From: a virus
Virus record (IMG/VR): IMGVR_UViG_3300046003_002228
Span: 1 to 25,202 of that record
Strand: one strand, 5' to 3'
Length of the DNA stretch: 25,202 bases
In this document: piece after piece, positions 2,904 through 23,381 of the stretch
Layout of the letters: every line of letters starts with the position of its first letter
How positions within the stretch are numbered: position 1 is the first letter of the stretch
Notes under the pieces: model-generated
Told to the model about the DNA's origin: nothing
The model's input: only the letters and a program-made list of their open reading frames with translations
Database searches by the model: none
Made by a program: the position numbers and the translations under genes

Positions 2904-3584
2904 ATGACAGCAAGACTCCAAAACCGCCGAGACACGGCAGCAAACTGGACAGCAAATAATCCAACACTTGCTCAGGGTGAACTTGGTCTTGAAACAGATA
3001 CCGCTAAGTTTAAGATGGGTGATGGCACTACTGCCTGGAATTCACTTGCATATGCCTATGCAGCTGGAGCAACAGGTCCAACCGGTCCTACCGGTCCAAC
3101 TGGCGCAGCTTCCACTGTTACCGGTCCGACTGGTGCGGAAGGTGCAACAGGTCCAACTGGCGCAGCTTCAACAGTAACAGGTCCAACCGGTCCTACCGGT
3201 CCAACTGGTTCCGCATCCACGGTTACCGGTCCTACCGGTCCAACTGGCGCAACAGGCCCAACTGGTGCCACAGGCCCTGGCCTTTTGGTTGGTTTCAGCC
3301 CACAAACAGGCAACTACACTCTTGCAATCGGAGATCTTAATGAACTGGTCACAGTTAATGCGGCCGCTACCGTTACAGTTCCACCTTCAGTGTTTGCTGC
3401 CAATGACCAAATCCACGTTCAACAAATCGCCGCTGGCCAGATTACTTTTGCGCAAGGCGCAGGTGTTACGATTACATCAACTGGTGCAACTGCATCTGCT
3501 CCTAAAACAAGGGCACAATATTCAGCTTGTACTGTGATTTGTACAGCTTCAAACACATTTACTATCGTAGGAGATATTGCATAA
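2904..3584 (+). CDS. Collagen-like fibre protein 2 with Mtd-type N-terminal domain (226 aa)
   Basis: Residues 5 to about 50 ([20 protein letters not shown], then a [17 protein letters not shown] block) match the repeat-like domain found at the start of many phage fibres and of the major tropism determinant N-terminal family. Collagen triplets run from about 55 to 125, again with [10 protein letters not shown] modules. The C-terminal 100 residues are a beta-rich globular domain starting [15 protein letters not shown], of the kind found at fibre tips. AAGAGAG-like spacing before the ATG is modest (CAAAGAGAGAAAG). The protein is probably a second fibre or a partner of fibre 1. Shared collagen cassettes suggest duplication or recombination between the two genes. 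Confidence 0.82.
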
Positions 3585-5298: not shown

Positions 5299-5310
5299 CA
5301 AGGGGGCAAC

Positions 5311-5846: not shown

Positions 5847-5866
5847 TACACAAGGTCGGGGGACCA

Positions 5867-6928
5867 ATGAAGATCGCAGTTTACACAATCGCACTCAACG
5901 AACAAGCCTTTGTCGAACGCTGGTACAAAAGTGCAAAAGAGGCCGATTATCTTCTTATTGCCGATACAGGATCAACTGACCTAACAGTTAAATATGCCAA
6001 AAATCTAGGCATAAACGTGATCCAAATAGGTATTAAGCCGTGGCGTTTTGACGATGCAAGAAATGCAGCTTTAGCAGCTCTTCCTCTTGACATAGATTAC
6101 TGCATAGCTTTAGATATGGATGAAGAACTTCAAGTTGGCTGGCGCAAAGAACTAGAATCTTTAGAATCCAGAATTACTAGACCAAGATACAAATACACTT
6201 GGTCATGGAATCCAGATGGATCACCTGGTTTAACTTATGGCGGAGATAAGATCCATTCTAGAAAAAACTACAGATGGAAACATCCTGTACATGAAGTTTT
6301 AACTTGCACGACTAATGAAGTGCAAGAATGGACAAAGTTAGAAATACATCATCATCCAGATGATACTAAATCTAGAGGTCAATACTTTGAGTTACTCGCT
6401 CAGTCTGTAATAGAAGATCCATCAGATGATCGAAATTGTTTTTATAACGCTCGAGAACTATTCTTTCACAATAAGTGGACAGAAGCAATTAAAGAGTTCA
6501 AGCGTCATTTAAGTCTTCCTAAAGCTCAGTGGAAACCTGAGCGAGCAGCATCAATGAGATACCTGGCTAAAATGGAAGAGTTTGAAAGAGAATCTTGGTT
6601 ACTAAAAGCAATTGCAGAATCTCCTAATAGTCGAGAACCTAGAGTTGATCTTGCTCAGCATTACTACTCAAAAAGCATGTGGCTAGATTGTTACGCAAAT
6701 GCTCATGCCGCTCTACGAATTGTAGAACAACCGCTTGAGTATCTTGTAGAATCAGATGCTTGGGGATATTTGCCTCATGATCTTGTAGCGATCGCATGTT
6801 ACAATATGGACAAATTAGACGAAGCAATAGAACATGGCAAGAAAGCTGTCGAACTAGCACCTTGGATTGATAGACTTAAAGAAAATCTAACTTTTTATAA
6901 AGAAGTACCCACCATGAAAGGCAACTAA
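5867..6928 (+). CDS. Family 2 glycosyltransferase with C-terminal TPR-like helices (353 aa)
   Basis: The N-terminal GT-A fold is clear: TIALNEQAFVERW (residues 7-19, with the NE that starts GT2 nucleotide-sugar sites), ADTGSTDLT (32-40), WRFDDARNAAL (59-69) and the metal-binding ALDMDEEL (81-88, a DxD-type motif). From about residue 200 the protein is all helical with repeated A/L/Y spacing (KWTEAIKEFKRHL, LDCYANAHAAL, DEAIEHGKKAVEL), as in TPR repeats that bind protein acceptors. Ribosome site is CGGGGGA at 5856-5862. Its place between fibre genes and portal suggests that it modifies virion proteins in the host cytoplasm. Sugar donor and acceptor cannot be read from sequence. Its stop abuts the portal start directly. 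Confidence 0.85.
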   Translation: MKIAVYTIALNEQAFVERWYKSAKEADYLLIADTGSTDLTVKYAKNLGINVIQIGIKPWRFDDARNAALAALPLDIDYCIALDMDEELQVGWRKELESLESRITRPRYKYTWSWNPDGSPGLTYGGDKIHSRKNYRWKHPVHEVLTCTTNEVQEWTKLEIHHHPDDTKSRGQYFELLAQSVIEDPSDDRNCFYNARELFFHNKWTEAIKEFKRHLSLPKAQWKPERAASMRYLAKMEEFERESWLLKAIAESPNSREPRVDLAQHYYSKSMWLDCYANAHAALRIVEQPLEYLVESDAWGYLPHDLVAIACYNMDKLDEAIEHGKKAVELAPWIDRLKENLTFYKEVPTMKGN

Positions 6929-8374
6929 ATGAGTCTATCGAATAGACTGCGTAAATCAGGAGAAAAAAGATACAACAATCAGTATCTTGAACCTTTTTTA
7001 CCTGGTCGTAATTTATATGCAACTCCAGCCGGTGTAGAAGTAAACTCTGATAGTGCAATTCGTATGTCAACTGTTTATGCTTGCGTAAGACTACTAGGTG
7101 ACACTATTAGTTCTTTGCCACTTTCCGCTTATGTCCGTCGTGGACGTTCTAGAATAAATTACGCATCAGTTTACGGTGAAATGCCTGCATGGATTAACAA
7201 ACCAAATCCTGATTCAACTCGTTTAGAGTTTTATGAGCAAGTAATTTCTTCTCTAAACCTTCATGGTAATGCATTCATTTTAACCGTACGTGACGAAATT
7301 GGCGACGTTCAAGAGCTTTATTGCATAAACCCACTGCAGGTTCGTATTCGTCGTCCTGATCCAATGGGTGAAATTGAATACATAGTTACTATAGGACAAA
7401 ATGCTCAAGATCCTGTAAATCAATTTTATGATAATGCACAGCCATTTGACCCATCTTCAGTTAAAACTATGGTTCTAACAAAAAATGAAATCTTGCATAT
7501 ACCTATGTTTAGACTACCTGGACAACTACTTGGACTTGGTCCTATTGCAGCAGCTCGCATTACTTTAGGTTCTGCTATGGCCGCGGAAGTTTATGCAGCA
7601 AGTTATTTTGGAAATGCAGCAAATCCTGGTGGAGTTATTGAATCTCCAGGTGAAATGACTGAAGAACAAGCTGCTGATATTGCTCGTAACTGGAATATGT
7701 CGCACACAGGACCTTATCGTGCGGGAAAACTTGGCATTTTAACTAGCGGTGCAACATTTAAGCCACTTACTCTAAATGCTGCAGATGCACAACTTCTAGA
7801 AGTACGTCGATTTGGTGTAGAAGAAATTGCTAGACTATTCCGTGTACCTGTATCTTTACTTGGTCACCCTGTTGCAGGAGCAATGTCATTTGCATCTGTT
7901 GAAGCTCAGAACTTATCATTTGTCCAACACTCTTTAAGACCTTTACTTGAAAGACTAGAACAAGCACTATCACCATTGCTTCCTGAGTCAGATGGATTTA
8001 TTAAGTTTAATCTAGACGCTTTGCTACGTGGAACAACATTAGAACGCTATGATGCCTATACAAAAGGTCTGCGTGAAGGTTTCTTAAGTCTAAATGATGT
8101 CCGTTATGTAGAAGATCTTGCACCTCTTGGAGAGTCTGGAGATCAATACCGTGTTCCGTTACAAAATATTGATGCAGCAGATGCAAAAGATGTTGGCTTA
8201 AACCTACGCGCCGATATTGCAGCCAAGTTAATTCAAGTAGGTTTTGATCCAAAATCAGTAATTGATGCTGTTGGTTTACCTGAAATGAATCACACAGGTT
8301 TGCCTTCAAATCAATTGCAACCAATTTCAACAATAGATCCAATAGATCCTAAAGCAGCATACGAGGTGGAGTAG
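6929..8374 (+). CDS. Portal protein, HK97 family (481 aa)
   Basis: Twelve copies of the portal form the DNA channel at one vertex of the capsid. Family hallmarks are present: SAIRMSTVYACVRLLGDTIS near residue 42, NKPNPDSTRLEFYEQVISSL, GNAFI, HIPMFRLPGQLLGLGPIAAA, and the EEIARLFRVPVSLLG block followed by AMSFASVEAQNLSFVQHSLRP, where the SxE-xxNLxFxxxxLxP pattern is diagnostic. Length is typical of the family. It is followed immediately by protease and capsid genes, the canonical order. The ATG directly abuts the glycosyltransferase stop without an intergenic spacer. Confidence 0.95.
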   Translation: MSLSNRLRKSGEKRYNNQYLEPFLPGRNLYATPAGVEVNSDSAIRMSTVYACVRLLGDTISSLPLSAYVRRGRSRINYASVYGEMPAWINKPNPDSTRLEFYEQVISSLNLHGNAFILTVRDEIGDVQELYCINPLQVRIRRPDPMGEIEYIVTIGQNAQDPVNQFYDNAQPFDPSSVKTMVLTKNEILHIPMFRLPGQLLGLGPIAAARITLGSAMAAEVYAASYFGNAANPGGVIESPGEMTEEQAADIARNWNMSHTGPYRAGKLGILTSGATFKPLTLNAADAQLLEVRRFGVEEIARLFRVPVSLLGHPVAGAMSFASVEAQNLSFVQHSLRPLLERLEQALSPLLPESDGFIKFNLDALLRGTTLERYDAYTKGLREGFLSLNDVRYVEDLAPLGESGDQYRVPLQNIDAADAKDVGLNLRADIAAKLIQVGFDPKSVIDAVGLPEMNHTGLPSNQLQPISTIDPIDPKAAYEVE

Positions 8375-8406
8375 TGTTGAATGAAGAGAAAGACTCAAGG
8401 AGCAAA

Positions 8407-9186
8407 ATGAAAAAAATCGAACGACGCACATATACTGTGCAAGATGTTGAAACTCGGGCAGATGACGATGGAAAGCTACGCTTGTCAGGATATGCAGCAA
8501 AGTTTGATAGTCCTAGCGTCCCACTACCATTCGTTGAAACAATTGCTCAAGGTGCATTTAGAAAAACATTAACAGAAATACCTGATGTCCGATTACTAGT
8601 TAATCATGAAGGACTTCCATTAGCTCGTACTAAAAATGGTACAATGACGCTAATTGAAGATGACATTGGATTAAGATTTGATGCTGAATTAGCAGATACT
8701 CAAGAAGCAAGAGATCTACATGCTCTTATTGCTAGAGGCGACGTAGATCAGATGAGTTTTGCGTTCCGTGTAATTAGACAAAAGTGGAATGAAGACCGCA
8801 CTATGCGTGTTTTGACTGAAGTATCATTAGCCGATGGAGATGTCTCAGTAGTTACTTATCCAGCTTATCCAGCAACATCAGTTGAAGCCCGTGAACATCT
8901 AAAAAATGCTATTGATGCTGTCAAAGAAGGACGAGAAATATCTGGAGATTCTTTACTAGTTCTAAAAAGCATTTTTGAAGATCTAAGTGAAGGCCATGAC
9001 TATGTAATGAAGTCAGTAGAACTAATGGCTCAATTACTAGGAAATCAAGAAGTAGTTGCAGCAGACGATATGGAAGATTCTGATTACATGGAAGATGAAG
9101 AAGACAAAGACTTAATTGAAGAGGTTTCTGTACCAAGATCTATATCTCTTCGTCTAGCAAAAGCAATAGTAAACAACACAAAATAA
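8407..9186 (+). CDS. Prohead maturation protease, HK97 gp4-like (259 aa)
   Basis: This serine protease trims capsid delta domains during head maturation. Visible motifs are LSGYAAKFDS (about 27-36), FVETIAQGAF, LLVNHEG with the catalytic His (about 67), and DVDQMSFAF with the catalytic Ser (about 117). The C-terminal third is charged and ends with an acidic tract (DDMEDSDYMEDEEDKD) that could serve scaffolding. I chose ATG 8407 because AAGGAG lies at 8397-8402 and the protein then begins MKKIERRTY, as in relatives. A GTG at 8374, overlapping the portal stop, would add 11 residues and remains possible. Confidence 0.93.
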   Translation: MKKIERRTYTVQDVETRADDDGKLRLSGYAAKFDSPSVPLPFVETIAQGAFRKTLTEIPDVRLLVNHEGLPLARTKNGTMTLIEDDIGLRFDAELADTQEARDLHALIARGDVDQMSFAFRVIRQKWNEDRTMRVLTEVSLADGDVSVVTYPAYPATSVEAREHLKNAIDAVKEGREISGDSLLVLKSIFEDLSEGHDYVMKSVELMAQLLGNQEVVAADDMEDSDYMEDEEDKDLIEEVSVPRSISLRLAKAIVNNTK

Positions 9187-9300
9187 TATTCTGTTAGCAA
9201 ATAGTTAACAGATACCGAAGTCGGAGCGAGACTCACACCCCAAAAGCGCCGTGATGCTTATCGCCACCACCTCGATTAAACTCATAAGGAGCAGAATACA
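9187..9300 (+). other. Untranslated leader before the capsid gene
   Basis: This 114-nt gap is unusually long for this window. It holds a weak 6-bp inverted repeat (CTGTTA at 9191-9196, TAACAG at 9206-9211), a GC-richer stretch, and a good ribosome site TAAGGAG just before the capsid ATG. The 13 nt AGCGCCGTGATGC occurs here (9245-9257) and again inside the capsid gene (9326-9338), 81 nt apart and in the same reading frame. No convincing promoter was found. It may set the high expression of the capsid gene through RNA structure. Confidence 0.4.
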
Positions 9301-10644
9301 ATGTCATACCTTGACAAAGTAATCGAGCGCCGTGATGCAGTTAAAACAGAAATGGACGCAGTTCTTGAGGCAGTTGCCGCAGAGAACCGTACAGATCTAA
9401 CTGCAGAGGAGACCGAGAAGGTTGACGCTCTTGTAGAAGAGTCACGTTCACTCGATACAAAAATCGAAAAACTAAAGACACAAGCTGATGCAGACGCTAA
9501 GGCTGCAGAAGTACGTGCAGCAGTTGCACCAGTTGCAACTCCAGCAGGTGGCACACGCGTCATCTCTGAACCTCGCACTTATTCAGTAAACTCTGATGCT
9601 TCATTCGTAAAAGATGCATATAACGCATCATTTAAGAATGATTTCAGTGCAAACGAGCGTCTTGCTCGTCACATGAAAGAAGAAGCAATTGAGCGTCGCG
9701 ATGTTGGAACAGCTGCGTTTGAAGGTTTGGTTGTACCACAATACCTTACAGATCTAGCTGCACCACTTGCACGTGCTGGTCGTCCATTTTTGGATGCTGC
9801 AACAAACAAGCACGTACTACCTGCAAGCGGAATGACATTAAACATCAGCCGCATGACAACAGGTACATCAACTGCAGTTCAAGCAACAGAAAACTCTGCT
9901 GTTTCAGAAACTGATGCTGATGATACACTACTCACTATTAACGTGCGTACAATTGCAGGACAGCAAGACATATCTCGCCAAGCAATCGAGCGCGGTACAG
10001 GAATTGATACATTTATTCTTGCAGACCTAATTCGTTCATGGCACACAACACTTGACAATCAATGCATCAATGGTGCTGGTACATCTGGCACAATTCTTGG
10101 TCTTGATGGTTCAGGTGGAAATGCAATCACTTATACATCAACAGCTCCTACAGTTCAACTTCTGTATCCAAAGCTTGCTGATGCAGTACAGCAAATCCAA
10201 ACAAACGCGTTTCAGAATCCAACACATTGGGTCATGCACCCACGCCGCCTAGCTTATCTATTAGCTGCAGTTGATTCACAAAACCGTCCTTTGGTAGTTC
10301 CAAACGCAAGCGGACCAGTAAACACAATGGCAGCAGGCGCAGGAGCTTCATCATACGGTAACTCAGGTTACTCATTGATGGGTCTACCAATTGTTACTGA
10401 TGCAAGCGTTGGAACAACTTTCGGCGCAGCAACAAATCAGGACAAAATCTATTGCGTTGCAGCACCTGAAATGCACCTTTGGGAGCAGACAGGATCACCA
10501 TTTGCGCTTAACTTTGATGCAACTGGTGCAAGCACATTGACAATTAAGTCTGTTGTCTATGGCTATGCAGCGTTTTCAGCAGGTCGTTACCCTCTAGCTG
10601 CCTCGATTATCTCAGGCACAGGTTTGGTAGCACCAACATTCTAA
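9301..10644 (+). CDS. Major capsid protein, HK97 fold (447 aa)
   Basis: Residues 1 to about 75 are a charged helical, coiled-coil delta domain (MSYLDKVIERRDAVKTEMDA onward) that acts as internal scaffold and is normally removed by the protease encoded just upstream. The mature shell domain follows, with VGTAAFEGLVVPQYLTDLAA, a central QDISRQAIERG, GTSGTILGL, HWVMHPRRLAYLLAA and LMGLPIVTDASV, all standard HK97-capsid landmarks. Length, order after portal and protease, and strong ribosome site TAAGGAG agree. The cleavage point is probably between residues 80 and 115 but cannot be fixed from sequence alone. Confidence 0.95.
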   Translation: MSYLDKVIERRDAVKTEMDAVLEAVAAENRTDLTAEETEKVDALVEESRSLDTKIEKLKTQADADAKAAEVRAAVAPVATPAGGTRVISEPRTYSVNSDASFVKDAYNASFKNDFSANERLARHMKEEAIERRDVGTAAFEGLVVPQYLTDLAAPLARAGRPFLDAATNKHVLPASGMTLNISRMTTGTSTAVQATENSAVSETDADDTLLTINVRTIAGQQDISRQAIERGTGIDTFILADLIRSWHTTLDNQCINGAGTSGTILGLDGSGGNAITYTSTAPTVQLLYPKLADAVQQIQTNAFQNPTHWVMHPRRLAYLLAAVDSQNRPLVVPNASGPVNTMAAGAGASSYGNSGYSLMGLPIVTDASVGTTFGAATNQDKIYCVAAPEMHLWEQTGSPFALNFDATGASTLTIKSVVYGYAAFSAGRYPLAASIISGTGLVAPTF

Positions 10645-10662
10645 GCAAAGCTTAGAACAATA

Positions 10663-10718
10663 GTGTAGAGCCGGTAAGACTCCCCCGACTTATCGGCTCT
10701 ACACCTTTAAACGGGGGA
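10663..10718 (+). promoter_or_regulatory. Strong hairpin after capsid gene with loop complementary to next ribosome site
   Basis: The arms GTGTAGAGCCGGTAAG (10663-10678) and CTTATCGGCTCTACAC (10689-10704) pair over 16 bp with one G-U, closing a 10-nt loop. The loop contains TCCCCCG (10681-10687), the exact complement of CGGGGGA (10712-10718), the Shine-Dalgarno region of the following gene. Only three T residues follow the stem, so this is not a textbook intrinsic terminator. It could limit read-through from the capsid gene, protect the capsid mRNA 3' end, or hide the downstream ribosome site. Confidence 0.7.
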
Positions 10719-10722
10719 AAGC

Positions 10723-11418
10723 ATGAAATCAGCACATACAGTTTCAATTGGAGCATGTGATCCAGGTACAGTTAATGCTGCTTGGGCGTATACAATGCTG
10801 CAACTTGCACAAGCAAGAAGTTCAAGATTAGGTCCATTTATAAGAATCGAAGGATCTGGTTTATTAAGTAAATTACGTAATCGTGTAGTTGCAACCTTTT
10901 TAGATCATACAAAATCTGATTGGTTGTTAATGATAGATACCGATGAGCAGTTAAGTGTCCAAGCATTTGATAAGTTAATTGAAACTGCTCATGATAAAGA
11001 TAGACCAGTTGTAGCAGGACTTTATTTTGCAGCTTGGGACGCAAATGAAAACCTATATCCTGTTCCTGTTCCATTGATTTTTAATGATACTAATAAAGGC
11101 TTTGCGCCTATAAATGACTACAAACGTAATGCGGTTTTTGAGATTGATGCTGCCGGTACTGGTTGCATATTAGTCCATCGTAGTGTACTTGAGAAAATGC
11201 GCGAAACAGCAGATCCAAACCAAGGCACGAACTGGTGTTGGTTTTGGGATGGACCTATAAATGGTGAATGGATAAGTGAAGACTTACTATTCTGCCGTAA
11301 AATCAAGCATTTAGGTTTCCCTATTTATGCCAATACAGGTGCCATATTGCCGCATCAGAAAAGATACTGGTTACATGAAGGCCATCATACTGAACGGCAA
11401 AGTAATGAAAATATTTAA
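10723..11418 (+). CDS. Second GT-A type glycosyltransferase (231 aa)
   Basis: The N-terminus MKSAHTVSIGACDPGTVNAA leads into a GT-A core. LLMIDTDEQLSV (about residues 67-78) carries the DxD metal site; VVAGLYFAAW, AAGTGCILVHRSVLEKM and SEDLLFCRKIKHLGFPIYAN follow, the last being the acidic catalytic-loop region typical of phage and viral GT2-like enzymes that end with a His-rich tail (GHHTERQ). It lacks the helical extension of the gene at 5867, so the two are different enzymes rather than a recent duplication. Ribosome site is CGGGGGA, adjacent to the hairpin described above. It likely glycosylates capsid or tail proteins; the acceptor is unknown. Confidence 0.8.
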   Translation: MKSAHTVSIGACDPGTVNAAWAYTMLQLAQARSSRLGPFIRIEGSGLLSKLRNRVVATFLDHTKSDWLLMIDTDEQLSVQAFDKLIETAHDKDRPVVAGLYFAAWDANENLYPVPVPLIFNDTNKGFAPINDYKRNAVFEIDAAGTGCILVHRSVLEKMRETADPNQGTNWCWFWDGPINGEWISEDLLFCRKIKHLGFPIYANTGAILPHQKRYWLHEGHHTERQSNENI

Positions 11419-11563
11419 GAAAAAACAAACAGCAACAGCTTTGCCCGATTTAGAACGAGCAATGCAGCCTAAATTAGAGAAAAGGATAACGCATGGCACT
11501 AACAAACGCCTATTGCACCCTATCGGATGTAAAGAATGCTCTTGCAATCGAAGACATCAATGA
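11405..11563 (+). CDS. Possible small ORF between glycosyltransferase and connector genes (52 aa)
   Basis: An ATG at 11405 overlaps the end of the glycosyltransferase by 14 nt and would give MKIFKKKQTATALPDLERAM and on to a Cys-containing tail. It fills the 74-nt gap before the connector gene but then overlaps that gene by 71 nt in another frame, which is unusual here. The first half has a plausible basic composition; the overlapping part may be meaningless. Equally, 11419-11492 may simply be untranslated. I see no family. Confidence 0.2.
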   Translation: MKIFKKKQTATALPDLERAMQPKLEKRITHGTNKRLLHPIGCKECSCNRRHQ

Positions 11564-12101
11564 TGATCTAGCTATAGAAGCTGCAATTGTTTCTGCTTGT
11601 AGAATGATTGATGATTATACAGGTAGATTTTTTTACAAAGATGGAACTTCTGCGGCTCCTGTGATTCGTTATTACACGCCAAATGACTGGTGGATCTGTA
11701 ATACAGATGATATTGTTTCTATTAGTGAAATTGCAACAGATGATAATTTTAACCGTAGTTATACAACTGTTTGGTCTGCAACAGATTATATGGTGGAGCC
11801 AATAAATAATCCACGTAGAGGTTGGCCATTTACTCGCATCTTAGCCGTAGATCGTTATCTTTTTCCTCGTTTATATCCGCAAACTGTACGTATTACAGGA
11901 GTATGGGGATGGTCTGCTGTACCCGCAGAAATCAATTTAGCTGCTCGTCTACAAGCTTCTAGACTGTTTATTAGAAAACAATCTCCATTTGGAGTTGCCG
12001 GTTCTGTTGATATGGGAACTGTAAGACTAACTTCTAGATTAGATCCTGATGTTGAAGCGTTAATTCGTCCACTTAAAAAGTTGAGTGGAGTTGCATACTA
12101 A
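11493..12101 (+). CDS. Head-tail connector (adaptor), gp6/gp15-like (202 aa)
   Basis: The start MALTNAYCTLSDVKNAL and the following helix-rich region (AIEAAIVSACRMIDDYTGRFFY) match the adaptor proteins that form the ring under the portal in HK97- and SPP1-type phages. A central beta insert carries YTPNDWWICNTDDIVSISEI, and WGWSAVPAEINLAARLQASRLFIRKQSP near the C-terminus is the typical final helical pair. Ribosome site is AAAGGA at about 11480. The TAATG overlap with the next gene couples it to the tail-terminator-like gene, the expected order. Confidence 0.85.
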   Translation: MALTNAYCTLSDVKNALAIEDINDDLAIEAAIVSACRMIDDYTGRFFYKDGTSAAPVIRYYTPNDWWICNTDDIVSISEIATDDNFNRSYTTVWSATDYMVEPINNPRRGWPFTRILAVDRYLFPRLYPQTVRITGVWGWSAVPAEINLAARLQASRLFIRKQSPFGVAGSVDMGTVRLTSRLDPDVEALIRPLKKLSGVAY

Positions 12102-12508
12102 TGCTACCAAGCAAAGTCCGCGAAGGATTAAAAAACAATTTACAAGAAATAGATGGACTTAGAGTTTATGATTTAGTCCCTGATGTAATTGTTCCACCAT
12201 GTGCAATAATTGGTCAATTAGATCTTACATTCGATCTTAACAATGCTCGCGGTTTAGATCAAGCAAATGTAGATGTAATGGTTATTGTCCAGAGATTCTC
12301 TGAAAGAACAGGCCAAGACAAGCTCGATAAATATCTTTCTGGTTCAGGAGATTATTCAATAAAAGCAGCAATTGAATCAGATCGTACTCTCGGTGGAGAA
12401 GTCGATACGCTTAGAGTTACTGCGGCTCAATCAGGAGTTTATCAAGCTGCTGATGTTGAATATTTATCATACCGATACCAAGTAACCATATATGGAGATG
12501 GAGCATAA
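12101..12508 (+). CDS. Tail terminator / tail completion-like protein (135 aa)
   Basis: The protein starts MLPSKVREGLKNNLQEIDGLRVYD and contains VPPCAIIGQLDLTFDLN, VDVMVIVQRFSERTGQDKL, a small loop YLSGSGDYSIKAAIESDRTL, and a C-terminal strand pair ending YRYQVTIYG. This layout is that of the small alpha/beta ring proteins that cap siphovirus tails or join head and tail. It follows the connector and precedes the tail tube genes, as expected. I cannot distinguish a true tail terminator from a head-completion protein. Overlaps both neighbours by one base. Confidence 0.65.
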   Translation: MLPSKVREGLKNNLQEIDGLRVYDLVPDVIVPPCAIIGQLDLTFDLNNARGLDQANVDVMVIVQRFSERTGQDKLDKYLSGSGDYSIKAAIESDRTLGGEVDTLRVTAAQSGVYQAADVEYLSYRYQVTIYGDGA

Positions 12509-12684
12509 TGTCATATACAATAAAATCCGATAATTTTGTATTCGGAGACAAGAAAAAAGGTGACCAAGTCACTGAAAAAGAATTGCTTGATGCAGGTTGC
12601 AACCCAGAAGCGCTAGTTAAGGGTGAACATCTATCAAGTAATATACCAACCAAACCAGCAATAGAAAAAGGAGCGGACGAATAA
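12508..12684 (+). CDS. Small hypothetical protein before tail tube genes (58 aa)
   Basis: The ORF starts MSYTIKSDNFVFGDKKKGDQ and ends with a Lys/Glu-rich tail (KPAIEKGADE). TAATG overlaps at both ends (12506-12510 and 12682-12686) embed it firmly in the head-tail operon, which is the best argument that it is real. The segment VTEKELLDAGCNPEALVKGEHL looks like a short helix-turn-helix fold, and small proteins with similar motifs occur beside tail genes in other actinophages. Function unknown. Confidence 0.65.
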   Translation: MSYTIKSDNFVFGDKKKGDQVTEKELLDAGCNPEALVKGEHLSSNIPTKPAIEKGADE

Positions 12685-13091
12685 TGGCCCGTTTAGTTCT
12701 TACCAACGCATATATCACTATAAATGCAGTCAATCTTTCTGACCACATTGCAAGTGTTACTTTAACAACAAATGACGATGTTGTAGAAACAACTGCATTT
12801 GGTTCAACCGCACGTACACGTATTGGTGGACTTGGTGATAATTCAGTAGCAATTGAATTCCATCAGGATTATGCAACAAGCAATGTTGAAGCAACAATTT
12901 ATCCACTACTTGGAGCTACAACAGCAGTTGTAGTTAAGCCAAATGGTGCGACAACAGCAGCTGATAATCCATCTTATACATTCACGGCTTTAGTTTCAGA
13001 GTGGACTCCATTAAATGGAGCAGTTGGAGAATTAGCAACTGCATCTGTAACCTGGCCAATTAGCGGCGAAGTAACTAAGGCGGTTTCATAA
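12684..13091 (+). CDS. Tail tube protein, copy 1 (135 aa)
   Basis: The product is a compact beta-rich protein starting MARLVLTNAYITINAVNL with DVVETTAFGSTARTRIGGL, VAIEFHQDY and a C-terminal FTALVSEWTPLNGAVGELAT. The VETTAFG/tR motif plus the W-P-L-N-G and VTWPISG ending is typical of short actinophage tail tube subunits whose hexamer rings stack around the tape measure. The next gene is a close paralogue. Expression is coupled with both neighbours by TAATG overlaps. Confidence 0.82.
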   Translation: MARLVLTNAYITINAVNLSDHIASVTLTTNDDVVETTAFGSTARTRIGGLGDNSVAIEFHQDYATSNVEATIYPLLGATTAVVVKPNGATTAADNPSYTFTALVSEWTPLNGAVGELATASVTWPISGEVTKAVS

Positions 13092-13480
13092 TGGCACGTA
13101 TTGTATTAACTAACGTAGCAGTTACTTTCGGAACAACAGATATTTCATCTTATGTTACTTCTGTGACATTAGGATCTACTTATGATGTTGTAGAAACCAC
13201 AGCTTTTGGCAATACCGCACGCACACGTGTGGCTGGACTTGCTGATAACAGCGTTGCTCTTGAGTTTAATCAAGACTACGCTGCAAGCGCATTAGAAGCA
13301 ACAATCTACCCAACACTTGGTACTGGAGTCTCAATGACTGTGCGCCCGGTTGCTGGTACATCACCTGCATATAGTTTTACAGCTTTAGTTTCAGAATGGA
13401 CACCACTAAATGGTGCCGTTGGTGAACTTGCAACTGCATCAGTAACTTGGCCAATCAGTGGTACAATCACCAAATCTTAA
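13091..13480 (+). CDS. Tail tube protein, copy 2 (129 aa)
   Basis: This is a tandem paralogue of the preceding gene: the last block (FTALVSEWTPLNGAVGELAT followed by ASVTWPISG) is identical in both, and YDVVETTAFGNTARTR differs little from its counterpart. The first 30 residues and the central loop (TGVSMTVRPVAGTSPAYS) are more divergent. One copy may form the tube and the other a specialised ring at one end or a decoration, or both may mix. Which is the major subunit cannot be read from sequence. Confidence 0.82.
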   Translation: MARIVLTNVAVTFGTTDISSYVTSVTLGSTYDVVETTAFGNTARTRVAGLADNSVALEFNQDYAASALEATIYPTLGTGVSMTVRPVAGTSPAYSFTALVSEWTPLNGAVGELATASVTWPISGTITKS

Positions 13481-13498
13481 TCTAACAAGGGGGAAATC

Positions 13499-13777
13499 AT
13501 GGACGGTCTTGGAATCAAAGTAAAAACAACAGATGGTAATCAGATAACTTACAAACTAACTCCTCGTGTCATAGTTGCATTCGAGCAACAATATGGCAAG
13601 GGAATGCCTAAACTGCTTGGTGAAGAACAAAAAGTCGAGCATATTTATTGGTTAGCATGGAAGTGTATGCAATCTAACGGAGTTATTGTAAAACCATTTG
13701 GTCCAGAATTCTTAGATACAATTGTATCGGCTGAATTGGACTCAGATGATTCTTTCGGATCCACCGAGACAGCTTAA
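13499..13777 (+). CDS. Tail assembly chaperone, short (gpG-like) form (92 aa)
   Basis: The protein sits between tail tube and tape measure, where siphoviruses encode the chaperone that coats the tape measure protein. It starts MDGLGIKVKTTDGNQITYKL and contains TPRVIVAFEQQYGKGMPKL and HIYWLAWKCMQSNG, matching the small helical G-type chaperones of actinophages. It ends with an acidic SDDSFGSTETA. Ribosome site is AAGGGGG at 13487-13493. Termination at 13775-13777 occurs inside a stem-loop; a -1 shift just before gives the longer form. Confidence 0.82.
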   Translation: MDGLGIKVKTTDGNQITYKLTPRVIVAFEQQYGKGMPKLLGEEQKVEHIYWLAWKCMQSNGVIVKPFGPEFLDTIVSAELDSDDSFGSTETA

Positions 13778-13899
13778 CGTATAACGTAGCAGCTATCTCG
13801 GTGGAAACTGGTATTTCACCAATAGATCTAATAGATGCGCCTGAAGGCATACTTGAGGCTATTACTATTTATCTTAAAGAGCGAGCAAAAGGTAAATAA
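13499..13899 (+). CDS. Tail assembly chaperone, -1 frameshift (gpGT-like) form (about 133 aa)
   Basis: The long form is read as join(13499..13756, 13756..13899) if the shift happens at TTC 13754-13756. The -1 frame is open from 13750 to the TAA at 13897-13899, lacks its own good start, and encodes RDSLTYNVAAISVETGISPI and IDAPEGILEAITIYLKERAK, which looks like the T domain of G/GT chaperones. In known phages a small share of ribosomes shift to make the fusion, and the G:GT ratio matters for tail assembly. Only Phe-tRNA re-pairing from TTC to TTT keeps cognate pairing near here. The exact slip site is inferred. Confidence 0.75.
13753..13804 (+). promoter_or_regulatory. Programmed -1 frameshift signal with downstream stem-loop
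   Basis: The slip candidate is TTTC at 13753-13756, followed by a 4-nt spacer GGAT and then a long stem-loop. The outer stem pairs CCACCGAGA (13761-13769) with TCTCGGTGG (13796-13804), 9 perfect bp. Beyond a C/A mismatch, AGCT pairs with AGCT (13771-13774 / 13791-13794) and an inner ACGT/ACGT pair caps the structure. The zero-frame stop lies inside the stem. This placement matches stimulatory structures of bacterial frameshift sites. It is not a classic X XXY YYZ heptamer, so efficiency may be low. Confidence 0.7.
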
Positions 13900-14457
13900 G
13901 TGGAAGACGATACAAGAATCATTTTGACCGGTATAGAACCAACTATTAAAGCTCTGAAAGAGTTTGATAAAAAAGCTGTCGCTAAGTTTAACAAAATAGT
14001 CAATACTGAATTAAATAATGCTGAAGGTGCTGCTCATCGTTTAGTAGATAGCATTCAGAGTAGAACAACCAATACTCCAATGCGTAATTGGAGACCAACA
14101 GCAGCTGTAAGTGGACGAACTTGGGGTGGTTCTGGTTGGCCTGCTTGGGATCAGTCAACAATTAAAGCAGGAATTACTGTTTCTAAAGCACAAAGACGTA
14201 CTCGTAAAGATTACACAACAAGTGCTGGTGCTTTGTTAAATACATCTGATGCTGGTAAAGTATTTGAACTTTCAGGACGTAATAAAAAAAGTGGATCGTT
14301 TATTGAAAGACTTAATTGGTTTGGTAAAGCTTCTCGTCTTGTCTGGAAAGTTGTAGATAAAGAAAGACCACGTATTGAAAAAGTAGTAGCAAAAGCTTTA
14401 GAAGACGCAAAACGTGAATTACAAACTCATCTTGATTCAGCGGGAAAGGTAAAATAA
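13900..14457 (+). CDS. HK97 gp10-like minor tail / tail completion protein (185 aa)
   Basis: Translation starts with GTG at 13900 immediately after the chaperone frameshift ORF stop. The N-terminal helical part (TGIEPTIKALKEFDKKAVAK, then NAEGAAHRLVDSIQSR) and the C-terminal basic helix (RIEKVVAKALEDAKRELQTH) with a central Trp-rich beta region (NWRPTAAVSGRTWGGSGWPAW) resemble HK97 gp10 family proteins. Those usually lie before the tail tube gene; here the gene comes after the chaperone, so the role could differ. One base separates it from the tape measure gene. Confidence 0.5.
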   Translation: MEDDTRIILTGIEPTIKALKEFDKKAVAKFNKIVNTELNNAEGAAHRLVDSIQSRTTNTPMRNWRPTAAVSGRTWGGSGWPAWDQSTIKAGITVSKAQRRTRKDYTTSAGALLNTSDAGKVFELSGRNKKSGSFIERLNWFGKASRLVWKVVDKERPRIEKVVAKALEDAKRELQTHLDSAGKVK

Positions 14458-14458
14458 C

Positions 14459-16024
14459 ATGGCAGTTGGTGCGGTAGTTGCCCGTATTCTTACCCAATAC
14501 TCTGATAAAGGCACAAAATCAGCAATAAAAGATATTGGCAAGATGGAAAAAAAGTTTAACGACTTTGCCAACAAGACCGCAAAAGTTTTTGGTGTAGCCA
14601 CTTTAGCCGCAGCAGCATTTGCAGCAAAAATTGGAAAAGACGCTGTCCGTGGTGCAATGGAAGATCAAAAGCAACAGACAGCACTAGCAACAGCTTTACG
14701 TAATGTTACCGGAGCAACTGATGGTGCAATTGCTGCAACTCAATTATACTTAGACAAACTTGAGTTAATGGTTGGCGTTGATAATAAAGAATTGATTCCA
14801 TCTCTTCAGATTTTAACTCAAGCTACTAGAGATGTAACACAAGCGCAAACACTTCAAGCATTAGCTTTAGATGTTTCTGCTGCGACTGGCAAGGACTTAC
14901 AAGCAGTTTCTATTGCACTTGCAAAAGCTGTTGGTGGAAATGTTACAGCTTTAACTCGACTGGGTGTTCCACTTGATGCAGATGCAGTTAAAGCCAAAGA
15001 CTTGACCGCTATTCTGAAATCACTTGGTGATACTTTTGGTGGTCAAGCAAATGAAAGAGCTAAAACTTTTGAGTTCCAGTTAGTCCGATTGCAACTTGCA
15101 TTTAATCAGATTTTAGATCAAATTGGTTATGCACTAATTCCTTTCTTAGAAAAACTAGCTGGCGTTATTAGAGATAAAGTACTTCCGGCACTTTCTGCTT
15201 GGATTGAACAAAATGGTGCAAAACTTGCTGGAGCCTTTAAGACGGCAATTGCCTACGGTGTTGCTTTCTTCCAACTTACTTTTGATCTTTTTAGTTTTGT
15301 AGCACGTAATGCAAAAGTATTTGCAACTCTAGGCGCAATAATTGTTGCTGCTTTTTTTGGTGGCAAAGTTGCAGCTGCTACAACTGCTCTTATCGGTGGT
15401 ATTAAAGCAATTATTACTGTCATGAAAGCTTTACGTACAGTCTCTCTAGCATCTGCTGCCGCTACTGCTCTTGCTACAGGTGGAGTTTCGGCAGCCGCTG
15501 GTGCCGCAGCATTTGGTGTTGCTTTAGTTGGTATGGGTCTTGCTGCAAAGAAGTTTAATAGCGATTCTGATAAAGCAACAGATGCACTTGGTAAGTTTGG
15601 CGTAGATCTTAAAGGTCTTAGTGTTGAAGCAGATGATTACACTAAGGGTCTAGATAAAATTACATCAGCAACAAATAAAGTAACTGCAGCAACTAAAGGC
15701 GAAGTACAAGCAACTGAATTGTTACTTAAACTACGCAATAAATTCGGATTAAAAGGACTTAAAGAAACTGATCCAATTACTCTTGAAGCAATTAGGAAAA
15801 ATCAAATTAAGCAAGCAAAACTTGGTATTTCCAGTCCAACGATCTCATTGCTAGCATCTGCTGGACATGGAAACATTGCTAAAAATACAACAATGAACGG
15901 TGGAAACATCACGGTAAACGTGGCCGGTTCTGTTGTTTCACAAGGTGATCTTGTAAATGGTATTAAGAATGGTCTTGCAACTCTTATGCGCCGACGTGGT
16001 GGCAGTCAGTTTGCGGTGCTATAA
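14459..16024 (+). CDS. Tape measure protein (521 aa)
   Basis: The product follows the chaperone and is long, helical and Ala-rich. The N-terminal region (IKDIGKMEKKFNDFANKTAK) is an amphipathic helix, followed by a conserved-looking domain with ALRNVTGATDGAIAATQLYL and AATGKDLQAVSIALAKAVGG, a motif pattern typical of short phage tape measures. Two hydrophobic segments lie at about 285-320 and 325-365 (LGAIIVAAFFGG; VSAAAGAAAFGVALVGMGLA), expected for a protein that inserts into the host membrane. The C-terminus has a small beta piece (ITVNVAGSVVSQGDLV). At about 0.15 nm per residue, tail length would be near 78 nm. Predicted antisense ORFs are shadows. Confidence 0.87.
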   Translation: MAVGAVVARILTQYSDKGTKSAIKDIGKMEKKFNDFANKTAKVFGVATLAAAAFAAKIGKDAVRGAMEDQKQQTALATALRNVTGATDGAIAATQLYLDKLELMVGVDNKELIPSLQILTQATRDVTQAQTLQALALDVSAATGKDLQAVSIALAKAVGGNVTALTRLGVPLDADAVKAKDLTAILKSLGDTFGGQANERAKTFEFQLVRLQLAFNQILDQIGYALIPFLEKLAGVIRDKVLPALSAWIEQNGAKLAGAFKTAIAYGVAFFQLTFDLFSFVARNAKVFATLGAIIVAAFFGGKVAAATTALIGGIKAIITVMKALRTVSLASAAATALATGGVSAAAGAAAFGVALVGMGLAAKKFNSDSDKATDALGKFGVDLKGLSVEADDYTKGLDKITSATNKVTAATKGEVQATELLLKLRNKFGLKGLKETDPITLEAIRKNQIKQAKLGISSPTISLLASAGHGNIAKNTTMNGGNITVNVAGSVVSQGDLVNGIKNGLATLMRRRGGSQFAVL

Positions 16025-17112
16025 TGCCAGCGAATGCACCTTCACTTACAGTTTCATTTAGTAATGGTGGAGCTTTTACAGCTGTCAGTGCTGATCTTTT
16101 GTTATCTGTTGAGATCCGTCGAGGTAGGCAATATCAAAATGACTTTTTAGAAGCTGGAACTGCTGATGTTGTACTTAACAATCAGTCAGGTGCTTTTGAT
16201 CCAAGCAACACATCAAGTCCATGGTATGGAATTTTAATTGCGGGAATGCAAGTAAGAATCCAAGGCAATTCTACAACAATTTATACAGGCTATTTAGAGA
16301 ACAATGAAGTAAATCAAGGTATTTATCCTACCGTGTCATTAACATTTGTTGATGGTCTTGCACAGATTGCCAAGGCAATTGCACCAGCATTAGCAACTAG
16401 TAATTTTTCAGAAGCTGCTTCTGCAAGAGCAACTAGAGCACTTGATCTTGCTGAATGGACTGGTGGACGTAGTCTTACTGGAACAACAGTTATGCAAAAA
16501 ACAAAACAAAACATGAGTTGTCTTGAAATGTTAGAACAATGCGCTAATTGTGTAGGCGGAAGATTTTATGTAAGTCGATCAGGAGTTGCAACTCTTGTTC
16601 CATTATCCGATAAGTTTAGCCGTCCAACTAGATTATTATTTAGCGACCAAGGCGATGCCAATAGTGTTGGCTACGATGGAATTATTACTAATCCTGGAAC
16701 TGATTATGTTTACAATGAGGCAATAGTATTTAGAGGTCCAAAGAAAGCTCAAAAGACAGCAAAGTTTACATCTAGTGTTTCTACATATGGACTAAAGTCT
16801 AAAAAACTAGATGCACCTATCTTAAATGAAACTAGTGCTGCAAATCTTGCTTTATATGCTGCTAGAAAAGATGCTGATGCTGTTGTATTGGCAGAACAAA
16901 TAGATTTTACAGCAATCGGTATTGGCGCACTTGCAACCGACATGCTCGAGACTGAATTAAATGATCTTGTCCAAGTAAAGCGTTTAACTTATGATGGACG
17001 AAATATTACAATTAACTGTGTTGTAGAAGGATTAGCTCATTCAATAACAGCAGATAATTGGAGAGTTAGTTACTTCACATCTGTAGTTGATCCTTATACG
17101 ATTACGATTTAG
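16024..17112 (+). CDS. Minor tail protein, hub/baseplate-like (362 aa)
   Basis: The protein directly follows the tape measure (TAATG overlap), where distal-tail and hub proteins are encoded. The N-terminal domain (SADLLLSVEIRRGRQYQNDF, EAGTADVVLNNQSGAFDPSN) is a beta-sandwich seen in actinophage minor tail proteins, with the recurrent 'LEAGTA-V-LxNxxGxFDP' pattern. The central region (MSCLEMLEQCANCVGGRFYV) with SGVATLVPLSDKF resembles the hub-domain repeat of gp27-like proteins, and the C-terminal part is again beta-rich. It probably combines distal tail and hub functions. The lack of a separate Dit gene supports this, as inference. Confidence 0.7.
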   Translation: MPANAPSLTVSFSNGGAFTAVSADLLLSVEIRRGRQYQNDFLEAGTADVVLNNQSGAFDPSNTSSPWYGILIAGMQVRIQGNSTTIYTGYLENNEVNQGIYPTVSLTFVDGLAQIAKAIAPALATSNFSEAASARATRALDLAEWTGGRSLTGTTVMQKTKQNMSCLEMLEQCANCVGGRFYVSRSGVATLVPLSDKFSRPTRLLFSDQGDANSVGYDGIITNPGTDYVYNEAIVFRGPKKAQKTAKFTSSVSTYGLKSKKLDAPILNETSAANLALYAARKDADAVVLAEQIDFTAIGIGALATDMLETELNDLVQVKRLTYDGRNITINCVVEGLAHSITADNWRVSYFTSVVDPYTITI

Positions 17113-17120
17113 GGGAAATA

Positions 17121-18755
17121 ATGCCACTTTGTCCGCAAATCACAATTACACCAATTACAGTTACCTCAACAGGCATGACTCAAACTTCTATCATTCCTAT
17201 TGTTGCTGCGACCACAGAAGAAATAGATGAACTTCAAGTTGAAATCGATACAATTGAAGTATCTGTTAATGGCAAAAATCATATTTACCGACAAGCAACT
17301 GCTCCAGACGGAACCGCATTTCCTTTAACTGAAGGCGATGTTTGGTTTGATACAGACGATGGTAATAAGCAATACTATTGGACTGGAACTGCATGGGTAT
17401 CTGTTCAAGATCTTGGAATTGCTGCAGCAGAAACAGCGGCAGCAGCAGCAGCATCTGCGGCAGCAGCGGCGTCATCTGCAGCTGCATCTGCAACTTCAGC
17501 AGCAGCGGCAGCATCTGCAGCAGCAACAGCTGCACAAACAACTGCAGATGGAAAAAATAAAGTTTATCGTCAAGCAACAGCACCAGCAGGAACTCATTCA
17601 GTTGGAGATCTTTGGTTTGATTCTAGTGCGGACAACAAACCAAATAGATGGACTGGTTCTGCTTGGGAAGCTTACGGTTTTGGAAATCTTGCTGTAGGAA
17701 ACTTAGATGCAGCGGCTATTTCAACTGGAACATTAAATGCGGATCGTATTGCTGCCGCTTCTATTACTGGAGCAAAAATAGTTGCTGGAACTATTGAAGC
17801 TGTAAACATTGCTGCAGGAACAATTACTGGAGCAAAACTTGCAGTAGGAACCATTGAGGCAGTTTCAATTGCTGCAGGAACAATTACTGGTGCAAAAATT
17901 GCTGGTTCAACAATTACCGCTAGCAATATTGCAACCGCAACAATTACTGCTGATCAAATTGCAGGCGGAACAATTACGGCAGCAGAAATTGCTGCAGATA
18001 CTATTACCGCAGCAGAAATTGCAGCAGGATCAATTACAGTTGACCGCTTAACCGCAGGTACTTTAACCGCGTTTACACTCAGAACTTCATCTGGTGCACG
18101 TCGAGTAACAGTTTCTGCTTCAACTAACTCAATTTCATTTACTGAATCTAGTTCAACTGTTGGTCACATTGGACCAGCTTCTACTAGTGGTATTGTCATG
18201 CACTACGGTTCAACATTTGATCCTTCAGTAACAACATATCCTAATGCTTATGTATCTTCTGGTGATGCTCGTATTGCTTTTAGTTCTAGTAAATATGTCC
18301 AAGTTAGTACAACTGGCGTTGTTATGAACGGAAATGTTTATACACTAGATGCTTTTTATAATCAAGATCCTTCAACAAGCGCAAACGCAGCCAATACTCG
18401 TATGGATACAGATGGTCGTACAAGACGAAGTACTGCTTCTAGTGCTCGTTTCAAAGAAAGCATAGTTGATCTTTCAACAGTTACTGATCTAAACCCAAGT
18501 GGTTTATTAAGTTTACCAATTAGAGCTTTCAAGTTTAAGTCCGATTATTTAGATGTCACCGATAATAGATCAGGAATTCTTGTACCTGGACTAATTGCAG
18601 AAGAAGTTGCTGAACACTATCCAATTGCTGCAGATCGTGGTGCTGATGGATTAGTCGAGAACTGGAATGAGCGTTTTGTAATTCCAGGTATGTTGGCTTT
18701 GATTCAAGATCTAAACACACGTATCAAAACACTTGAGGGGAACGCAAATGGATGA
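17121..18755 (+). CDS. Tail fibre with C-terminal S74-type self-cleaving chaperone domain (544 aa)
   Basis: Residues 53-96 and 145-186 are two copies of a small module (IYRQATAP ... GDVWFDTDD ... YYWTGTAWVSV), each ending in a Trp motif. They flank an Ala-rich coiled coil (100-140). From about 200 to 315 come regular repeats of the type ITGAKIAAGTI/ITAAEIAADTI, a beta-helical shaft. The C-terminal about 105 residues (from SSARFKESI at 440) match the intramolecular chaperone auto-processing domain (peptidase S74), with the Ser and Lys of S-x-R-x-K expected to drive trimerisation-linked self-cleavage near residue 440. IPGMLALIQDLNTRIKTLEG forms the final coiled coil. Ribosome site AGGGGAA precedes the ATG. 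Confidence 0.88.
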   Translation: MPLCPQITITPITVTSTGMTQTSIIPIVAATTEEIDELQVEIDTIEVSVNGKNHIYRQATAPDGTAFPLTEGDVWFDTDDGNKQYYWTGTAWVSVQDLGIAAAETAAAAAASAAAAASSAAASATSAAAAASAAATAAQTTADGKNKVYRQATAPAGTHSVGDLWFDSSADNKPNRWTGSAWEAYGFGNLAVGNLDAAAISTGTLNADRIAAASITGAKIVAGTIEAVNIAAGTITGAKLAVGTIEAVSIAAGTITGAKIAGSTITASNIATATITADQIAGGTITAAEIAADTITAAEIAAGSITVDRLTAGTLTAFTLRTSSGARRVTVSASTNSISFTESSSTVGHIGPASTSGIVMHYGSTFDPSVTTYPNAYVSSGDARIAFSSSKYVQVSTTGVVMNGNVYTLDAFYNQDPSTSANAANTRMDTDGRTRRSTASSARFKESIVDLSTVTDLNPSGLLSLPIRAFKFKSDYLDVTDNRSGILVPGLIAEEVAEHYPIAADRGADGLVENWNERFVIPGMLALIQDLNTRIKTLEGNANG

Positions 18756-18894
18756 CGCAACAGAACTAGACATCAATGTTGTTATTGCTGTACTAAGAGA
18801 GCAGATTGGTCTGCTAGCTCTGGACAAAGCAATGTTGACGGCTAGAGTGGGGGATCTCGAAGCAAAACTCAAGGAGAAGAATGACTGTGAATGA
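18748..18894 (+). CDS. Small coiled-coil protein (48 aa)
   Basis: The ORF begins MDDATELDINVVIAVLREQI and runs into heptad-like LLALDKAML and VGDLEAKLKEKN. Its ATG overlaps the end of the fibre gene by 8 nt and has GAGGGGAA in front. It is soluble by appearance and without a hydrophobic anchor. It may be a lysis accessory or a fibre assembly factor by position; no family recognised. Confidence 0.55.
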   Translation: MDDATELDINVVIAVLREQIGLLALDKAMLTARVGDLEAKLKEKNDCE

Positions 18895-19108
18895 CTGGGC
18901 TGCTTTAATACTTGCGGTCATATCGATACTAGGTTCGTTTGTAATTGCCATACGTTGGCTGGTTAAACACTTCTTAAATGAATTAAAACCAAACGGTGGA
19001 TCTAGTCTAAAAGACTCTGTTACGAGATTAGAAACTCAAATGGAATTAGTAATAACAATGTTAACTAATAAGGGGAAAAATGAAAAACCTAAAACAAATA
19101 GCAGATAG
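18881..19108 (+). CDS. Membrane-anchored coiled-coil protein, holin-like (75 aa)
   Basis: One transmembrane helix at about residues 6-26 (WAALILAVISILGSFVIAIR) is followed by a basic stretch (WLVKHFLNELKPNGG) and a helical segment SLKDSVTRLETQMELVITML. The NGGSSLKDSV turn after the membrane helix resembles membrane proteins encoded in lysis modules of actinophages. It overlaps the endolysin start by 29 nt and the previous ORF by 14 nt. It may act as a holin or as a holin regulator. Confidence 0.6.
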   Translation: MTVNDWAALILAVISILGSFVIAIRWLVKHFLNELKPNGGSSLKDSVTRLETQMELVITMLTNKGKNEKPKTNSR

Positions 19109-19547
19109 TTATATAGGTTATATCGAAGGCAAGAACAACGATACAGTTTTTGGCAAATGGTATGGACTTAATAACCAACCTTGGTGCGCAATGGCAGCAT
19201 CAAAAGTTTATCATCAAGCAGGTTTAATAAGCAAAGTTGCACCAAAAAGCAAACCAAAAGGCTATGCTTCTTGTGATGAATGGCTTAAGTATTTAACAAA
19301 AAGCAATCAGTTAATACCAATTGGCCAAGCAAAACGTGGAGATCTTGTATTCTTCCAGTTTGACGCAGATGCTCAACCAGATCATGTAGGAATTGTCCAA
19401 TGGCATAATACAACCTTAAAATACGTAAATGTATGGGAAGGTAACACGTCGGACAATAAAACTGGTAGCCAATCCAATGGTGACGGGTTCTATCTAAAAC
19501 GCAGAAAATACGATACAATTATGGCAATTGCACGTCCAAAGAACTAA
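19080..19547 (+). CDS. CHAP-domain endolysin (155 aa)
   Basis: This is a single-domain peptidoglycan amidase/endopeptidase. The catalytic Cys lies in NQPWCAMAAS (Cys36), the His in QPDHVGIVQW (His102), and an acidic third residue is likely in VNVWEGNTS (Glu120). RGDLVFFQF before the His is the usual CHAP beta strand. No cell-wall-binding repeat is visible, so the enzyme is shorter than most endolysins. It lies between two small membrane proteins, and AAGGGGAA precedes the ATG. It has no signal peptide, so export needs a holin. Confidence 0.88.
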   Translation: MKNLKQIADSYIGYIEGKNNDTVFGKWYGLNNQPWCAMAASKVYHQAGLISKVAPKSKPKGYASCDEWLKYLTKSNQLIPIGQAKRGDLVFFQFDADAQPDHVGIVQWHNTTLKYVNVWEGNTSDNKTGSQSNGDGFYLKRRKYDTIMAIARPKN

Positions 19548-19556
19548 AGGAGTGTT

Positions 19557-19751
19557 ATGAAACTTAAGCCAAAGCACAAAGCAGCAATTAAATCTTATTT
19601 AAGAGCAGTTGCAGCATCTGGTATTACCGTAATTCTTGCAATCGCAGCAGATATGCGCCCTGAATATGCAGTATTACTTGGATCCATTATTGCTCCAATT
19701 GTTAAGTCAATTGATCCAAACGAAAAAGAATACGGATTAGGAAGTAAGTAA
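19557..19751 (+). CDS. Candidate holin, small membrane protein (64 aa)
   Basis: A basic N-terminus (MKLKPKHKAAIKSYLRAVAA) leads into two hydrophobic stretches (SGITVILAIAADM and YAVLLGSIIAPIVKSI), then the charged tail DPNEKEYGLGSK. Size, charge distribution and position 9 nt after the endolysin fit a two-helix holin. AAAGGAG precedes the ATG. The stop overlaps the next start (TAATGATG). Together with the membrane protein at 18881 there are two candidates; this one has the more classical holin make-up. Confidence 0.65.
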   Translation: MKLKPKHKAAIKSYLRAVAASGITVILAIAADMRPEYAVLLGSIIAPIVKSIDPNEKEYGLGSK

Positions 19752-21910: not shown

Positions 21911-21925
21911 AATAGCAAAAAAGAA

Positions 21926-21958
21926 GCCCCTGCCTTTCGGCAGGGGCCTTTTTCTTTT
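21926..21958. terminator. Bidirectional intrinsic terminator
   Basis: GCCCCTGCC (21926-21934) pairs with GGCAGGGGC (21939-21947) around a TTTC loop. CTTTTTCTTTTT follows on the plus strand. On the minus strand the same stem is followed by TTCTTTTTT. It lies between convergent genes, ending the plus-strand structural/lysis unit and the minus-strand DUF932 unit. Confidence 0.93.
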
Positions 21959-21962
21959 TGTC

Positions 21963-22931: not shown

Positions 22932-22958
22932 TTTTTCCTCCTGGCGATTTATTCTGAT

Positions 22959-23199: not shown

Positions 23200-23205
23200 T
23201 TGGAT

Positions 23206-23245: not shown

Positions 23246-23299
23246 TACATTCAATACTGTCCACCAGTGTTTGTACACTTCATTGAATAAGATCTTATG

Positions 23300-23319: not shown

Positions 23320-23381
23320 GGAGTCGGTTTAGTCCAGATCGAGCGGCCAGGTTTGTCCCAGGACCACGGACATATTGATCC

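Follow-up and report, generated by a model that had tools for sequence, protein, structure and literature searches.

A conserved hairpin in the capsid mRNA 3′ UTR of a phage clade exposes a C-rich loop that may pair with G-rich ribosome sites

In phage T7 the terminator T-phi, which has a U tract and a free loop, lies behind gene 10. Hairpins of another kind, with C-rich loops, act on G-runs at the ribosome sites of bacterial genes. Mutating both loops of the B11/6C RNA of M. abscessus abolishes repression of a six-G leader (PMC10470900). There is also mutational evidence that the C-rich loop of sX13 acts on G-run ribosome sites, and the authors of that study note the same principle for RepG (HPnc5490), with the loop core UCCCCCU, and for the targets of Staphylococcus RNAIII (PMC3771888). 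The 3′ UTR of an mRNA can also contain a regulatory RNA or give rise to one by cleavage (PMC7398697), and PreS of lambda is cited in PMC12197685 as a phage-encoded sRNA.

The locus described here resembles each of these in part. It lies in a 25.2-kb virus record, of which all 25,202 nucleotides were analysed and are called the window. Its hairpin, like T-phi, stands directly behind the major capsid gene, a placement that would separate capsid expression from the genes downstream; unlike that U-tract terminator with its free loop, it has no U tract and its loop is fixed as C5GA. With 6C/B11 (RF01066) it shares a C-rich apical loop on a strong stem and a pairing, predicted in the phage, with G-runs at ribosome sites. 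However, the host sRNA 6C stands alone and has two C-rich hairpins, whereas the phage has one, in the capsid 3′ UTR, and its loop ends in a fixed GA. The phage UCCCCCG is close to the UCCCC(C) loops that sX13 (Xanthomonas) and RepG (Helicobacter) direct at G-runs near start codons, but those RNAs are stand-alone host sRNAs of unrelated bacteria, neither from phage nor in a capsid 3′ UTR. Like the 3′UTR-derived and phage sRNAs, the hairpin is a putative regulatory RNA within an mRNA 3′ UTR and is phage-encoded; the described examples are mostly Hfq-dependent and from Proteobacteria, whereas release of an RNA from the capsid mRNA is putative. Judged by its sequence, the element would join an antisense-like action of a C-rich loop to the placement of a post-capsid terminator, outside the 6C family. 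The combination of a C-rich loop in a phage capsid 3′ UTR with fixed G5 targets was not found described in the literature searched.

The window has a siphophage-like late gene order: the terminase end, fibre-like genes, the glycosyltransferase gene GT1, portal, protease, major capsid protein (MCP), the putative glycosyltransferase gene GT2, adaptor, tail terminator, two major-tail paralogues, a putative tail-assembly chaperone, tape measure and endolysin (Table 1). The two major tail protein (MTP) genes are adjacent (12684-13480), and each query finds the leader of the other. Collagen-like GPTG-repeat proteins, probably fibres, are encoded at 1233-2882 and 2904-3584. The putative chaperone has no PHROG or Pfam match; it is so named because of its position, a -1 frame that stays open beyond the stop to 13899, and a strong hairpin at 13760-13805, a possible stimulator of programmed -1 frameshifting.

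Table 1. Positions of the post-capsid hairpin, the G-rich ribosome sites and the associated genes in the window
Feature	Position	Strand	Details
GGGGG ribosome site, putative target 4	5302-5306	+	66-aa ORF starts at 5311
GTCGGGGGA, ribosome site of the pre-portal glycosyltransferase, putative target 2	5855-5863	+	9-nt loop complement
GT1, glycosyltransferase gene	5867-6928	+	phrog_13126 E 6.8e-113; PF00535
Major capsid protein gene (HK97 type)	9301-10644	+	Pfam PF05065 E 1.2e-15, phrog_2263 E 1.2e-53; hairpin in 3′ UTR
Hairpin 5′ arm	10663-10678	+	16 nt; begins 18 nt past the capsid stop codon
Apical loop ACUCCCCCGA (= ACTCCCCCGA)	10679-10688	+	Core CCCCCGA at 10682-10688
Hairpin 3′ arm	10689-10704	+	No U tract after it
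CGGGGGA, ribosome site of the next gene, putative target 1	10712-10718	+	7-nt loop complement
GT2, putative glycosyltransferase gene	10723-11418	+	phrog_34859 E 1.6e-31; Pfam PF00535 below cut-off only
GGGGGA, ribosome site of the putative chaperone, putative target 3	13489-13494	+	
Putative tail-assembly chaperone gene	13499-13777	+	Position between major tail and tape-measure genes; frames

The hairpin, at 10663-10704 on the + strand, consists of a 16-bp stem (15 Watson-Crick pairs and one G-U) and a 10-nt apical loop, and it exposes a C-run on a strong stem as C-rich-loop antisense regulators do. Its folding energy of -25.9 kcal/mol (z = -7.8) was equalled by none of 200 shuffles, and folded together with its flanks it has a z of -5.3. 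An earlier note on this DNA had counted the stem among the strongest in the window. This is borne out, with a single comparable short-range inverted repeat, the bidirectional terminator at 21908-21965. That terminator has U tracts, lies between convergent genes and is the only classical strong one within the scanned 6000-25202. The same note had described the loop as a perfect complement of the ribosome site before the glycosyltransferase gene, across a 7-nt linker. Both descriptions are correct: TCCCCCG (10681-10687) is the exact 7-nt complement of CGGGGGA, which ends four bases upstream of the GT2 ATG, and the linker occupies 10705-10711. CCCCC occurs once in the whole window, within this loop; GGGGG occurs seven times on the + strand, four of them ribosome sites.

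Several simple assignments were tried and rejected. There is no U-rich tract directly 3′ of the stem, where the tail reads CTTTAAACGG, and the terminator scan makes no call there, which speaks against a classical intrinsic terminator. The corresponding tails in relatives include CCCATAA, TTCTAAAC and CCACAAC. Stop-codon readthrough or frameshifting at the capsid end is contradicted by an in-frame TAG inside the 5′ arm, and by the relatives, among which both the stop codon and its distance to the stem vary. Rfam returned no match at gathering scores, and its permissive matches are those of chance. Membership of the 6C family was rejected in that the RF01066 covariance model has no match in the window, nor does it appear among the permissive matches; instead of two C-rich hairpins there is one, with the single CCCCC of the window and one match to our own hairpin model per long contig.

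We evaluated the conservation of the hairpin by searching viral contigs with the capsid and glycosyltransferase sequences, which gave 201 loci with a readable 3′ flank and an MCP 71-100% identical. All 201 carry a hairpin with a C5-C6 GA loop, 15-43 nt past the capsid stop. Among the 42 distinct versions, 98.2% of stem cells are paired, against 30-47% in slid-partner controls; changes on both sides are seen at all 16 stem pairs, and double changes number 161, compared with 31 on average in shuffles. All 42 have the same loop core, CCCCCGA. The sole departure came from a later chaperone-based search, in which three loci (L458, L460, L468) have CCCCCAA. Since these keep C5 while the G becomes A, C5 is the stricter part of the loop. 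Wobble cells in the stem comprise 51 G-U and 2 A-C, and therefore selection acts on the + strand RNA; the same counts disfavour a function of the DNA or of the minus strand. Within a phage clade, the 3′ UTR of the major capsid mRNA thus contains a conserved RNA element, the hairpin. Its stem is conserved in shape only, and five or six C and then GA are exposed at its tip.

With a covariance model of the hairpin, every long contig yields a single match, invariably behind the capsid gene. In a control scan of viral contigs with the 14-mer GACTCCCCCGACTT, the hairpin was present wherever the family capsid gene was present, and also in two contigs truncated at the capsid end; in all others the 14-mer occurred without a matching hairpin. 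The idea that other phages carry the loop was dropped, as contigs with the 14-mer and no family capsid gene do not form the hairpin. Searching 296 Actinomycetota genomes for a host-encoded copy with the hairpin model gave two weak matches only, G+C-rich and in non-phage gene contexts. Queries with capsid, glycosyltransferase and chaperone revealed no loss of the loop inside the clade and no chaperone without the hairpin. Because no lineage of the clade has lost the loop, the link between loop and targets consists of two separate invariances and one contrast with distant clades, and the co-occurrence of loop and G5 sites may reflect a single evolutionary event.

The second invariance concerns the ribosome sites. 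Leaders were counted by orthologue, as distinct leaders among all those collected. A GGGGG ribosome site is present in 68/68 leaders of GT2 and in 63/64 of the putative tail-assembly chaperone. It is absent from those of MTP (0/132), MCP (0/40), adaptor (0/51), tail terminator (0/88) and portal (0/29), 0/340 in total; the capsid and major tail protein genes have GGAG-type sites. G-runs at the ribosome sites of a specific gene set are what C-rich-loop antisense regulators act on. Long contigs have several further G5 sites before lysis, fibre and small genes, and G5 sites persist in contigs whose next gene has lost its own (G001, G005). The G5 run can also work as an ordinary strong ribosome site.

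Two glycosyltransferases that are unrelated to each other (phrog_13126 and phrog_3408) alternate among relatives in the slot before the portal gene, and each is preceded by the leader GGTCGGGGGACCAATG (5855-5866 in the window). The unrelated proteins share this leader in L219, L223, L237, L239, L240 and L244, as if it were kept, or served as an exchange point. Many G5 sites, including that at 5854-5865 and those of about 30 of the 68 GT2 leaders, sit in a small palindromic hairpin of at least 4 pairs with GGGG at its tip, for example GGTC-GGGG-GACC or GATTC-GGGG-GAATC, a geometry that would suit loop-loop contact.

We compared the computed energies of the two possible partners of these sites. 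Unconstrained duplexes with the loop, which ignore the strain within a closed 10-nt loop, reach -16.2 (GT1), -15.5 (GT2) and -13.4 kcal/mol (chaperone), and those with the anti-Shine-Dalgarno reach -8.6, -8.6 and -10.3 kcal/mol, respectively. In these unconstrained computations the G5 sites therefore pair better with the loop than with the anti-Shine-Dalgarno. The GT1 site is the strongest complement of the loop in the window. The second strongest is CTCGGGGGACTT (19751-19775; -16.1 kcal/mol), which lies within an 83-aa ORF without a family match, 10-20 nt past its start.

The exact 7-nt complement 8 nt away, together with the G5 run of every GT2 leader, would fit a cis-only pseudoknot, in which the loop pairs solely with the ribosome site immediately downstream. 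We consider this very improbable. The loop is unchanged in six loci (L024, L025, L039, L045, L057, L079) where the next gene is a head-tail adaptor without a G-run site, and in L024, L039 and L045, whose stems diverged meanwhile, it had time to drift. Among relatives, 5 to 16 nt separate the stem from G5, and the pseudoknot geometry is therefore not conserved; judging from A-form geometry, short spacers would span the full 16-bp stem only if it melts. Outside the C5/G5 core the flanks do not covary: the C-run is preceded by CA, TG or CT in the loops CACCCCCCGA, TGCCCCCGA and CTCCCCCGA, and GGGGGA is the facing site in every case. Measured against H-type pseudoknots, the locus has a loop complementary to a downstream segment, but in relatives neither that complementarity nor the geometry is conserved. 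Equally conserved G5 sites also lie 3 kb downstream and 5 kb upstream.

The earlier note had proposed that the loop pairs with the ribosome site, as a pseudoknot or in trans. The general proposal gains from the strong selection on the loop and from the G-run in all GT2 leaders, and loses its narrow cis form to the variable spacer, the flanks and the loci in which the adaptor comes next. Since G5 sites are also retained by other genes, above all those of the putative chaperone and the pre-portal glycosyltransferase, pairing with several sites, in trans or over a long range, is the better fit. That note had regarded a stem kept without covariation of loop and ribosome site as evidence against its proposal; such a pattern is found in part, and bears on the cis form only.

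We further considered whether the hairpin is only a 3′-end device of the capsid mRNA, acting as a U-less terminator or attenuator, or as a block to 3′ exonucleases, that raises capsid over the downstream genes, with its loop kept for RNA polymerase, an RNase or an RNA-binding protein. Distant relatives lend this some weight. A strong, nearly perfect post-capsid hairpin occurs in 62/77 of them (~80%; MCP 35-45% identical to that of the window), usually 5-15 nt past the capsid stop, mostly without a U tract and with different, unrelated loops. Mycobacteriophages and some actinobacterial prophages also have post-capsid hairpins, and the position appears ancient and general. Since the distant relatives share the position and not the loop, what is general is a hairpin behind the capsid gene, and the C5GA loop is special to this clade. 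In the relatives without that loop, GGGGG was read in 1/55 next-gene leaders. Among the distant actinophages L494-L573 another loop form, NCGACUCC, recurs; it contains CUCC, the complement of GGAG ribosome sites.

As the whole account, a 3′-end device nevertheless seems unlikely. Besides the missing U tract and terminator call, the loops of terminators and stabilisers normally vary freely, whereas here the loop alone is fixed and every stem pair changes; the fixed set of G5 ribosome sites would also be left unexplained. A protein that reads the CCCCCGA loop would be expected to leave the same loop conservation as antisense pairing. The suggestion in the earlier note that the hairpin might simply cap the capsid mRNA agrees with the stem, which is general in distant relatives, and is at odds with the near-invariant loop. 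The two roles are compatible, and a function of the stem as U-less terminator or stabiliser may well coexist with an antisense loop.

The host of the clade is probably an aquatic member of the Actinomycetota, an inference drawn from the distant capsid relatives. The capsid query of the window matched only mycobacteriophages in the phage collection, and isolated phages of Nanopelagicales have been reported (PMC10202952). In such a host the loop might instead act on the host, mimicking 6C-type regulators at G-rich host ribosome sites or sponging a host RNA or protein. The host 6C RNAs that we found in Actinomycetota have similar C-rich apical loops on stems of 12-16 bp, and RNAs with C-rich loops have broad target sets. 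We regard action on the host as rather improbable, as the phage's own G5 sites already form a fixed target set and the phage has no 6C match.

These data allow us to propose a model in which the hairpin in the capsid 3′ UTR is an antisense element whose C-rich loop acts on several of the phage's own ribosome sites, a proposal to which we give about an even chance. It builds on what was observed, namely the RNA structure with its strand and position, a C5 core that does not vary, and G5 sites that are fixed for particular genes; from these we infer pairing in the cell, repression, and the capsid mRNA, or a fragment of it, as the actor. During late expression the capsid message would probably be the commonest phage RNA and so present many copies of the loop. 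The loop would base-pair, in cis or between molecules, with the GGGGG sites of GT2, GT1, the putative tail-assembly chaperone and some lysis and small genes. By competing with ribosomes, this pairing would lower translation of the targets relative to the capsid and major tail proteins, and the abundant capsid message would probably in this way also brake genes with all-G ribosome sites. The acting molecule could be the whole capsid mRNA or a processed 3′ fragment, and the antisense C-rich loop would have been added onto an older post-capsid hairpin. More tentatively, the capsid mRNA could be a trans regulator whose C5 loop titrates a G5 regulon comprising both glycosyltransferases, the chaperone, lysis and small genes.

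The hairpin would add a new family to the structured RNAs of abundant aquatic phages. That most distant relatives also have a hairpin behind the capsid gene suggests that different loops were placed on a control point that is old. If the antisense model is correct, the commonest message of the phage would bear an antisense tip against a few rare ones, which would allow a phage with one long late operon to make its proteins in very different amounts with no need of separate promoters. The output of low-copy and late-acting proteins would then depend on how much capsid message there is, in a 6C-like stoichiometry circuit built into the mRNA of a structural gene. The phage would also have its own equivalent of the C-rich-loop sRNAs found in Actinomycetota, with a ready loop and a ready set of targets.
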